The translations under genes and the position numbers were made by a program. Under the pieces are notes generated by a model. The model searched no databases, was not told where the DNA came from, and saw only the letters and a program-made list of their open reading frames with translations. DNA of 39,156 bases from Eubacteriales bacterium (GTDB taxonomy: Bacteria; Bacillota; Clostridia; Peptostreptococcales; Anaerovoracaceae): contig JAQWFH010000020.1 of NCBI GenBank assembly GCA_028704515.1, forward strand, positions 1 to 39,156. Reading direction: 5' to 3'. Shown in pieces: positions 25,755 to 28,517 of the stretch (its first letter is position 1; each line of letters opens with the position of its first letter).

Positions 25755-26363
25755 TTATTTTTTATTCTCAAACAGTTCTTTTGTCTTGAATTCAAGAGTT
25801 ATAGATGATTTGTTGCCATCCTGCGGAGTGAATTCGGCGCTTTGAAGCGTCTGCCCCTCCGGATCTATAATGCATAGAGGCGGAAATAAAACGCACCACC
25901 AATTTTGTCCCGCGCCCTTGCCGATTGTAATGCTTAGCGCTTCATAATTTCCTGCAGGGAATGTGACTTCACCATATGTTTTCTTAGGAATGAAGCACGT
26001 ACCGAGCTTTGCTTCAACATCATACGCATAGCCTTCGCGGCGAACAATCTCGAGCGCTTTTTCCTTTATTCTTCCTATGTTGTTGTTTATATAATTGCGC
26101 GATAGCTCAGCATCGCCTTCAGCTATGCTTTCATAGCCCCCATCGGCGGCGAACACCTCCATTGTAAGCTCATCGTTAATTTTTGCGAGAAGTTCATCTC
26201 TCACCTTTAATTTAAGTACTTGATCGTCAGGCTCGTCGGAATTTGCTATCACATGGAATCTGATTATTCCCTCGTATTCCTCTGCAGCTTTGTTTTCATC
26301 CGCAAATACGCAGATGCCTATCAGCAATACCGTGCATACTATAGGGATTATAAATTTACGCAT
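25755..26363 (-). CDS. spoIIR: Stage II sporulation protein R
   Basis: About 202 residues from the ATG at 26363, chosen because AAAGGAGGG sits 6-7 bases upstream; a TTG at 26381 would place the Shine-Dalgarno inside the gene. The protein has a signal peptide (about 1-20). The family core is RFHVIANSDEPDDQVLKLKVRDELL (quoted in parts: RFHVIANSD and LKLKVRDELL). A C-terminal domain carries YGEVTFPAGNYEALSITIG and NWWCVLFPPLC. In Bacillus, SpoIIR is made in the forespore under sigma-F and secreted towards the mother cell, where it triggers SpoIIGA to process pro-sigma-E. A consensus sigma-F-type promoter lies immediately upstream, inside an unusual hairpin. The gene follows sipL by 50 bases. Confidence 0.95.
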   Translation of the reverse strand: MRKFIIPIVCTVLLIGICVFADENKAAEEYEGIIRFHVIANSDEPDDQVLKLKVRDELLAKINDELTMEVFAADGGYESIAEGDAELSRNYINNNIGRIKEKALEIVRREGYAYDVEAKLGTCFIPKKTYGEVTFPAGNYEALSITIGKGAGQNWWCVLFPPLCIIDPEGQTLQSAEFTPQDGNKSSITLEFKTKELFENKK

Positions 26364-26364
26364 A

Positions 26365-26409
26365 AAAAACCCTCCTTTCAAGCAATTTTTACCTTTCGGG
26401 AGGATTTTT
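26365..26409 (-). promoter_or_regulatory. Hairpin that would sequester the spoIIR Shine-Dalgarno or terminate sipL transcripts
   Basis: On the minus strand AAAAATCCTCC (26409-26399) pairs with GGAGGGTTTTT (26375-26365): 11 pairs including one G.U and a 23-base loop. The right arm contains the core of the spoIIR Shine-Dalgarno and ends in six T. The left arm lies upstream of the predicted sigma-F transcription start, so only transcripts coming through from sipL could form it. Confidence 0.55.
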
Positions 26410-26413
26410 ATAC
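26384..26413 (-). promoter_or_regulatory. Sigma-F-type promoter of spoIIR
   Basis: On the minus strand GTATA (26413-26409), exactly 15 bases, then GGTAAAAATT (26393-26384). This fits the sigma-F consensus GYATA-N15-GGNNANAHT at every defined position. The predicted start of transcription is near 26377, giving a very short leader. Confidence 0.75.
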
Positions 26414-28456
26414 TTATTTTACTATGAGAATTTTGCTTCCCGATTTTACCGGACGATTTTTCTCAATTTGATTAATTTCCGCGATATCATACATGGATGT
26501 TCTGAATTTCTTTGCAATGCTCCATAGCGTATCATTCGGTCCGCTTACGTATACGATCATCGACGGTCCTGCCTTATTCGCATCATCCTGTTTGACGATG
26601 CAAGGATTGCTTATTAGGTTGCAGGTGCTGCTCTTCCAAAGAAGGGCCGAAACGAAAAGGTTTGCGTTCAGCTCCGCCTGTCTGCTCGATAGCTTCTCGA
26701 ACCATATGTCTCTAAAATCGATTCTGTATTCGGAGAGCATGTCACTTTTTGCTCCCGGCACATCTATCGAGCCTCTAAAAGGGATTTCTCTTTTCAATGA
26801 AAAAACACTGCCTTTTTCACCGCTTGCAAGGCAAAGAAGCTCCGCTTCTAGGCTTCCGTTTACAGTTACCTTGTTTTGATCCGCCGAAATCTCGGCGCCC
26901 TTAATTCTCACATCCGAGAACAGAACTTTTTCTATGTCCTCCTGCCTGTCAGGGACATTAAATATCTCTCTTACCGATAAGTCAGCTGCGCCGCTTCCGG
27001 TGAAGCTTTTTATCTCCAAAGGCGAGCTTTCGCATTTCAATTCCTTGTGAGCGTGATAGAAATCCGTAACTATTTCCTTATCGCTATTTCTATATATCTC
27101 AAGCGTAGTTTCAACATTTCCGGATAGTTTCAGTGCGCTTTCGTTTTCAAAGCCCTCGACCCCCTCCTGAATATCAATATTCAGGTTGCGAATATCAAAG
27201 CTCAGTTTACTTCCCGATCGATGTTCCCCGGTATCAAGTGGTATAAACTGTGTAAATTCCGTCTTGGATTGAAAGAATACGGGAACCTTCGAATTTTCTT
27301 CTCCTTCTTGCAGTTCCTCCGTGCTTATGTCTTCGGCAAGGTATAACACGTTGCAATAGACAGATGCGTTTATTACGGCTTTTTCAGGTGATATCTGCTT
27401 GTGGTTAGGAGCAATACTTATACTGCTTCTCAATATTTTTCGAGGTCTCGGCATGCCCTCTTTTATCGGCATTACCTCGCTTATCTCGATCCCCTCTGTC
27501 TTTTTATAAAGAATTTCTGTTACGGTCACATTCTCCTTGAGAAGCTCTACCTCATCTCCCTTGATTCCGCTGAAGCATTCAACTTTAACATCGTTGTATT
27601 CGTTTATATTCAAAAGCAATGTTATTTTGGCTTTGAATTTTCTCTCGTTGATAACTTTATGCTCTATAGATTCAATTTCAGGGTTTACAGTCAAGGTAGA
27701 CATAGGGGAAATGTTCTCACCCAAATCCGTGCGGAATGGAACGCGCGCAACTACTGCACAGATAGGCTCACTCTTTCCATCGATTGGTGTATAAAGTGCG
27801 TTAATCGTTACTTCGCCGCTGACCTTTATAAGATCCTCTCGCTTCAGAGCAACTGTGCCGTTCATAGAGATTATCGACAATAAATCGGGCTTAACGTCGG
27901 GAACCAGTATGTCTTCCTCTATATAAACGCGAACAGGGGCCCTCTCTGATATATCAGCAAATTTTAAAGTTTCGGATAGTGCCGCGGCACCTATAGGGAC
28001 TGCCTCGCCCTCGTCCCTTTTGGCGGCTGGCTTGGAAACGCCCTTGCCGGGCTTACTTACAGGCTGCTCGTACATAGGAATTTCAACAGGAATAAATTCC
28101 TCCTCCACTTCTTTGCTCCGGGCTTCCTTATCCTCTAAGATATCTTCCATTTCCACAACTTCTTTTGTTTCTTCTATTTCTGCAACTTCTTCCATTTCTA
28201 CAGCTTCTACAACTTGCGGAACTTCTTGAGCTTCTTCAATCTTTTCAACTTCTCGGGTTTCTTCCAACAATTCCACCGGCGCAATTGTTTCCGGTTCTTT
28301 AATAATCTCTTGCTTTTTCTGCTCGGGTGCTACGCTGGCTTCTTTTGGCTCAGGTGCTGTCCGGGCTTCTTCCGGCGGCATGACGGCAGGTATATGTATT
28401 CCCGCAAGAATTCTGTCGTACGGCGTCGGGTCGAAGCCGTCATCTTCATATTTCAT
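26414..28456 (-). CDS. sipL: SipL-like spore coat morphogenesis protein (SPOCS/DUF3794 repeats and LysM)
   Basis: A 680-residue protein without signal peptide. Residues about 20-125 are a Glu/Pro/Val-rich, low-complexity acidic region. Three SPOCS (DUF3794) regions follow: about 178-260 (VYIEEDILVPDVKPDLLSII), about 340-420 (IAPNHKQISPEKAVINASVY) and about 510-600 (VREIFNVPDRQEDIEKVLFS). A C-terminal LysM domain occupies about 635-680 (VSGPNDTLWSIAKKFRTSMY). This is the architecture of Clostridioides difficile SipL, which binds SpoIVA and is needed to attach the coat. The C. difficile protein is shorter (about 520 residues), the difference being mainly the acidic N-terminus. It lies between ispE and spoIIR, and a sigma-E-type promoter is visible just upstream. 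AAGGGGG precedes the ATG. Confidence 0.9.
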   Translation of the reverse strand: MKYEDDGFDPTPYDRILAGIHIPAVMPPEEARTAPEPKEASVAPEQKKQEIIKEPETIAPVELLEETREVEKIEEAQEVPQVVEAVEMEEVAEIEETKEVVEMEDILEDKEARSKEVEEEFIPVEIPMYEQPVSKPGKGVSKPAAKRDEGEAVPIGAAALSETLKFADISERAPVRVYIEEDILVPDVKPDLLSIISMNGTVALKREDLIKVSGEVTINALYTPIDGKSEPICAVVARVPFRTDLGENISPMSTLTVNPEIESIEHKVINERKFKAKITLLLNINEYNDVKVECFSGIKGDEVELLKENVTVTEILYKKTEGIEISEVMPIKEGMPRPRKILRSSISIAPNHKQISPEKAVINASVYCNVLYLAEDISTEELQEGEENSKVPVFFQSKTEFTQFIPLDTGEHRSGSKLSFDIRNLNIDIQEGVEGFENESALKLSGNVETTLEIYRNSDKEIVTDFYHAHKELKCESSPLEIKSFTGSGAADLSVREIFNVPDRQEDIEKVLFSDVRIKGAEISADQNKVTVNGSLEAELLCLASGEKGSVFSLKREIPFRGSIDVPGAKSDMLSEYRIDFRDIWFEKLSSRQAELNANLFVSALLWKSSTCNLISNPCIVKQDDANKAGPSMIVYVSGPNDTLWSIAKKFRTSMYDIAEINQIEKNRPVKSGSKILIVK

Positions 28457-28488: not shown

Positions 28489-28517
28489 AATGTATGATAT
28501 AGAGGAGATAAATATGC
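28489..28517 (-). promoter_or_regulatory. Sigma-E-type (mother cell) promoter of sipL
   Basis: On the minus strand GCATATT (28517-28511), 14 bases, CATACATT (28496-28489). This matches the Bacillus sigma-E consensus KMATATT-N14/15-CATACAHT at every position. Transcription would begin near 28482, about 26 bases before the start codon. Confidence 0.8.

Follow-up and report, generated by a model that had tools for sequence, protein, structure and literature searches.

A sigma-F promoter embedded in a Shine-Dalgarno-masking hairpin: a candidate mute on read-through expression of spoIIR in Clostridia

SpoIIR, the trigger of sigma-E activation, couples the forespore to the mother cell, and its production in the wrong cell or at too early a stage would uncouple sigma-E activation from septation. 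In B. subtilis, forced pre-divisional expression of spoIIR leads to pro-sigma-E processing without sigma-F (as cited in PMC3789822), and hence there is something to guard. The window, which is the whole stretch of 39,156 nucleotides analysed here, raises the question of how such a gene can be packed directly behind another one without giving false signals. It comes from a genome of 1.93 Mb, and on its minus strand a GHMP kinase gene (ispE-like), sipL, spoIIR, and a trypsin/PDZ protease gene follow one another. The features of the locus are as follows.

25755..26363, minus strand: spoIIR, start codon ATG at 26363-26361 (PF09551 4e-43, TIGR02837 4e-42)
26365..26375, minus strand: right arm of the hairpin, GGAGGGTTTTT, which is the spoIIR Shine-Dalgarno (SD) sequence with a U-run (sequence, fold)
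26376..26379, minus strand: sigma-F transcript start, predicted from the distance to the -10 box (leader of about 14-16 nt)
26385..26393, minus strand: sigma-F -10 box GGTAAAAAT, which also contributes to the hairpin loop and to a small inner stem (sequence, fold)
26399..26409, minus strand: left arm of the hairpin, AAAAATCCTCC, in the promoter spacer and upstream of the predicted start point (sequence, fold, covariation)
26409..26413, minus strand: -35 box GTATA of the predicted sigma-F promoter (sequence)
26414..28456, minus strand: sipL (SPOCS domain and LysM), stop codon at 26416-26414 (PF12673, PF01476)
28489..28517, minus strand: predicted sigma-E promoter of sipL, GCATATT-14-CATACATT (sequence)

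The sigma-F promoter consensus consists of GYATA and GGNNANANT, about 15 nt apart. It is matched by GTATA-15-GGTAAAAAT within the 50-nt gap between sipL and spoIIR, and the layout is kept in the relatives, most of whose spoIIR loci carry such a promoter with a spacing of 14-16 nt. An 11-bp inverted repeat encloses this promoter, and the right arm of the repeat is the spoIIR SD. The original prediction had described the two arms as pairing over 11 positions, and the sequence is exactly so, one of the 11 pairs being U-G. The promoter of sipL is a near-perfect match of the sigma-E type, in agreement with the sigma-E promoter of C. difficile sipL (PMC3789822). The sipL stop codon directly adjoins the GTATA box of spoIIR. 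A ribosome terminating on sipL might for a moment occupy the left arm and so release the SD, a possible coupling of the two genes.

An RNA reading through from sipL is predicted to form a stable hairpin over the SD and start codon of spoIIR. The RNA from 26420 to 26345 folds at -20.3 kcal/mol, against -9.4 +/- 2.6 for dinucleotide shuffles (z -4.2; 0 of 200 as good), and its stem spans both the SD and the start codon, with a small inner stem in the loop. When the promoter boxes and the SD were held fixed and the bases of the spacer and those following the -10 box were shuffled, 15 of 5000 sequences reached the real energy. For all tested RNA starts from 26600 to 26414, the unpaired probability of the SD (GGAGGG) was 0.00, whereas it was 0.35 for RNAs beginning at the predicted start, 26379-26376, where the fold is weak at -5.8 kcal/mol. 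A sigma-F RNA from this predicted start would lack the left arm and leave the SD free apart from weak pairing. The claim that read-through RNA buries the ribosome site is borne out at the level of predicted folds, and the claim that the sigma-F transcript frees it is compatible with them, given the predicted start. Across relatives, the mean SD accessibility rises from 0.28 in the read-through RNA to 0.55 in the predicted sigma-F RNA. The arms of the window rank 11th of 121, which is unexceptional among SDs. A search of Rfam gave nothing above the gathering score, only two chance-level matches.

If the pairing matters, it should be retained where the letters change, and this aspect could be addressed with spoIIR loci drawn from the family, order, and class and from named genomes, 121 of which remained after deduplication. 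For the relatives, a script assigned start codons and promoters. Judged by its sequence neighbours, the window looks like a member of the Anaerovoracaceae, and Clostridium aminobutyricum and Anaerovorax odorimutans seem to belong to this family too; a genome of the same genus (G001) is also present, and the SpoIIR of L072 (Firmicutes bacterium UBA1440) shows 79% identity over the part present. Aligning the mixed family set (A3) with MAFFT yielded no consensus structure, as the arm registers differ between loci, and a swap test was used instead, in which the pairing of each promoter with its own SD region is compared with its pairing to the SD regions of other species. Over the 121 loci the duplex of own arms averaged -12.65 kcal/mol against -8.67 +/- 0.24 kcal/mol when permuted (z about -17; best permutation -9.73), and over a set of 95 loci it averaged -13.10 against -8.88 +/- 0.28, with 0 of 20000 permutations reaching the own value; in these permutations kinship is handled by deduplication only, the tree being otherwise ignored. 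Stricter deduplication to 65, 40, and 24 loci, the last being divergent ones, gave z values of -11.0, -7.6, and -7.3. With fixed windows, the z value was -16.8 for spoIIR and -1.6 for a control set of 130 genes that have good SDs and lie in the same loci.

The spacers of the relatives pair with the SD using different letters, as in the following examples.

G001 (same genus): arms AAAAACCCTCCTTTC / GAAAGGAGGGTTTTT
L024: arms AAAAACGCTC / GAGCGTTTTT
L038: arms ACTCTTTCATGG / CCATGAAAGAGG
L143: arms AAAAGCTCCTTTTTG / CAAAAGGAGCTTTTTT
L104 (Anaerophilus): 20+ pairs

Family f11 has a 22-pair consensus with compensatory pairs, single columns using A-U and C-G. When the helices over the SD were compared without gaps, A-U, U-A, C-G, and G-C all occurred at the first two columns past the core. 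Arms that differ in sequence and still pair amount, as judged from sequence comparison, to covariation across genera and families. The swap test, the control genes, and the compensatory pairs together argue that the pairing is maintained by selection, and matched arms with changed letters in many spore-forming Clostridia suggest that the lock is real. The original prediction would have been undermined by arms that failed to covary in relatives, and the reverse was found, far above the level of the control genes.

A hairpin was called where E-null was below -4, a threshold passed by 45% of loci and by 9% of mismatched pairs (about 9% false positives). By family, hairpins were found in 34/46 loci of f1, 8/10 of f3, 4/4 of f6, 8/8 of f11, 3/3 of f31, and 2/6 of f47, as well as in several families with a single genome; f4 had 3/20, and many other families had none. 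In the Lachnospiraceae-like loci L093, L095, L107, L111, L117, L134, and L135, the left arm often lies at the -10/start region (CTCCATAT ... ATATGGAGG) and not in the spacer; the geometry differs and the effect is possibly the same. Two genomes carry two copies of spoIIR each, namely G071 (C1:158278 and 166376) and G168 (C2 and C21), with the loci L054, L057, L053, and L056, of which L053, L056, and L057 all have the hairpin layout. An apparent TTG start of spoIIR, a possible further brake on translation, was seen in L053, L056, L063, L067, and L069.

With upstream genes assigned to families by Pfam, the hairpin was most frequent at a short distance behind sipL, in 21 of 33 loci, and behind ispE, in 10 of 13; it was found behind gerAC, GntR, and other genes in 28%, 33%, and 28%, respectively; it also occurs behind a MobA-like gene. 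The figures for the sipL group are partly phylogenetic, since this group is mostly one family. The original prediction saw the hairpin as a guard against a sigma-E neighbour, and the sigma-E-type promoter of sipL agrees with this, but the hairpin is equally common behind ispE. Since ispE is a housekeeping gene, the threat to spoIIR may be something other than read-through by sigma-E, and vegetative read-through would be worse. The hairpin does not depend on a sigma-E neighbour and hence has the look of a mute against read-through in general.

Among loci with a co-directional upstream gene, a terminator before the -35 box was present in none of the 47 with a hairpin and in 15 of the 53 without (p 3e-5). 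When only upstream genes defined by homology were counted, the direction held but the contrast weakened, to 0/42 and 6/38 (p 0.009; p 0.054 when gap-matched). Such mutual exclusion would be expected if both devices do the same job, that of stopping SpoIIR from being made by read-through. Neither a called hairpin nor a terminator was present in 32 of 80 co-directional loci. Where the upstream ORF lies on the opposite strand, 7 of 19 loci still score, some of these ORF calls being antisense artefacts.

The reading favoured here, with a probability of roughly three in four, is that the hairpin serves as a mute on read-through that is embedded in the promoter. RNA from the upstream gene, here sipL with its predicted sigma-E transcription, or possibly from further upstream, would carry both arms; these would fold and bury the SD and start codon, and SpoIIR would not be translated from such RNA. 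Where a U-run follows the hairpin, as in the window, the RNA may also end there. Sigma-F polymerase would start inside the hairpin, past the left arm, and make a short leader with a free ribosome site. SpoIIR would then be made only from the forespore promoter despite the packing of its gene behind another. Overall, the interpretation given in the original prediction is supported.

The same hairpin could be read as an intrinsic terminator belonging to sipL that, with so little room, runs into the start of spoIIR and masks the SD as a by-product, with the same effect on spoIIR. The A-tract, G+C stem, and U-run of the window would suit a terminator, as would the absence of conventional terminators from loci with the hairpin and the TTTT that follows the SD in 19 of 54 hairpin loci against 5 of 67 others. 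However, the remaining 35 hairpin loci, e.g., L038 and L014, lack the U-run though the SD pairing is kept, the hairpin loops, at 15-50 nt, are longer than is usual in terminators, and a simple terminator scan did not pick up the hairpin of the window. The U-run is enriched and not general, so that what the loci have in common is masking of the SD and not termination, and the terminator account is unlikely. Of the two outcomes originally proposed for read-through RNA, burial agrees with the predicted fold, and ending at the T run could apply to a minority of the hairpin loci. Masking of the SD in read-through RNA is most likely what occurs, possibly with termination where a U-run follows. Alternatively, the hairpin might form in the transcript from spoIIR's own promoter and there damp translation or act as a sensor, like the small ribosome-site hairpin of B. 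subtilis sigG, and in a few loci (L053, L041, and L258) the predicted sigma-F RNA does have a paired SD. For the window and most of its relatives, however, the predicted start falls downstream of the left arm, and the sigma-F RNA cannot form the hairpin; this and the rise in mean SD accessibility make a damper very unlikely.

A purine-rich SD and a pyrimidine-rich spacer may pair by chance, without any function, as a by-product of base composition, and mismatched arms do reach -8.7 kcal/mol, with nearly a tenth of them passing the threshold. This account is highly improbable given the excess of own-arm pairing, which no permutation matched and which was repeated on the deduplicated sets, the lack of such an excess in control genes with good SDs, and the covariation of the flank columns beyond the SD core. 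The dyad might instead be a DNA operator or promoter element, a regulator site for spoIIR, as it overlaps the promoter spacer exactly. An operator would conserve its letters, though, and those of the arms vary freely among relatives with complementarity kept, which renders this explanation extremely improbable.

Taking the hairpin as a mute on read-through, a broader proposal, for which the odds are about even, is that Clostridia repeatedly shield spoIIR from stray transcription by setting its cell-type promoter within a hairpin that masks the SD. Such a hairpin would replace a terminator in little space, and its arms would have re-evolved in many families and before different neighbours (sipL, ispE, and gerAC). 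If true, the arrangement would amount to a recurrent design principle for silencing a cell-type-specific gene within an operon. With a conserved RNA lock, spoIIR could lie directly behind sipL, which is expressed elsewhere, or ispE, which is always on, without false signals. Under such a lock, spoIIR transcript levels in RNA-seq need not mean that SpoIIR protein is made.

Clostridioides illustrates the other arrangement. The RpoB of G246 is nearly identical to PDB 7l7b, which we take to be the C. difficile polymerase, and this places Clostridioides in f4. A SleB-like sequence lies downstream of spoIIR in G246, matching the spoIIR-sleB operon of C. difficile (PMC3789822). The Clostridioides loci (L194, L300-L304) have no SD hairpin, and L194 has a strong ordinary terminator between a GntR gene and spoIIR. 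The missing hairpin was considered as a cause of the leaky expression of spoIIR in sigF mutants of C. difficile (PMC3789822), an idea that was dropped given this terminator; for the residual transcription, a later paper suggested sigma-G (PMC7438776).

No such hairpin was found for spoIIR in the open-access papers searched, and to that extent the original view of the switch as undescribed for this gene holds, although the principle has precedents (PMC5942855, PMC2988022). In B. subtilis, sigG (spoIIIG) lies behind spoIIGA-sigE, and a long hairpin was proposed to block its read-through translation (Masuda 1988, as described in PMC5942855). As far as that description goes, sigG resembles spoIIR in that it acts in sporulation, lies behind another gene, and has a forespore promoter of its own; transcripts begun at that promoter cannot fold into the long hairpin, as is predicted for spoIIR. 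The gene and the clade are different and the sequence is unrelated; the sigG hairpin, of 20+ bp in that account, concerns a sigma factor, whereas spoIIR encodes a signalling protein and has its arm in the promoter spacer. A second, 5-bp hairpin of sigG also masks the SD of a forespore gene, but unlike the one proposed for spoIIR it is present in RNA from the gene's own promoter, where it constantly reduces translation (PMC5942855). Within the family of the window, the swap test on sigG (n=11) gave no overall signal; some pairing of promoter region and SD was seen in the sigG loci L206, L209, and L232.

Similarly, hairpins at late promoters are known from I-TevI, I-TevII, I-TevIII, and segB of phage T4 and mobE of Aeh1 (PMC2988022). 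The promoter of I-TevI is placed such that its transcripts carry too little sequence for a ribosome-site hairpin formed in longer, earlier transcripts, and the other four have similar arrangements (PMC2988022). The phage hairpins exert temporal control, in contrast to the cell-type control proposed for spoIIR, and share no common ancestry with it. In IS10, transcripts entering from external promoters fold so as to cover the ribosome site of the transposase gene and RNA from its own promoter does not, as is predicted for spoIIR; IS10 differs in being a transposon, and the purpose there is to limit transposition. The principle has already been proposed for sigG and described for I-TevI, and what was not found in the open-access papers searched is its application to spoIIR, again and again in many families. 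It is this recurrence, together with the position on the signalling gene itself, that makes the spoIIR case unusual.
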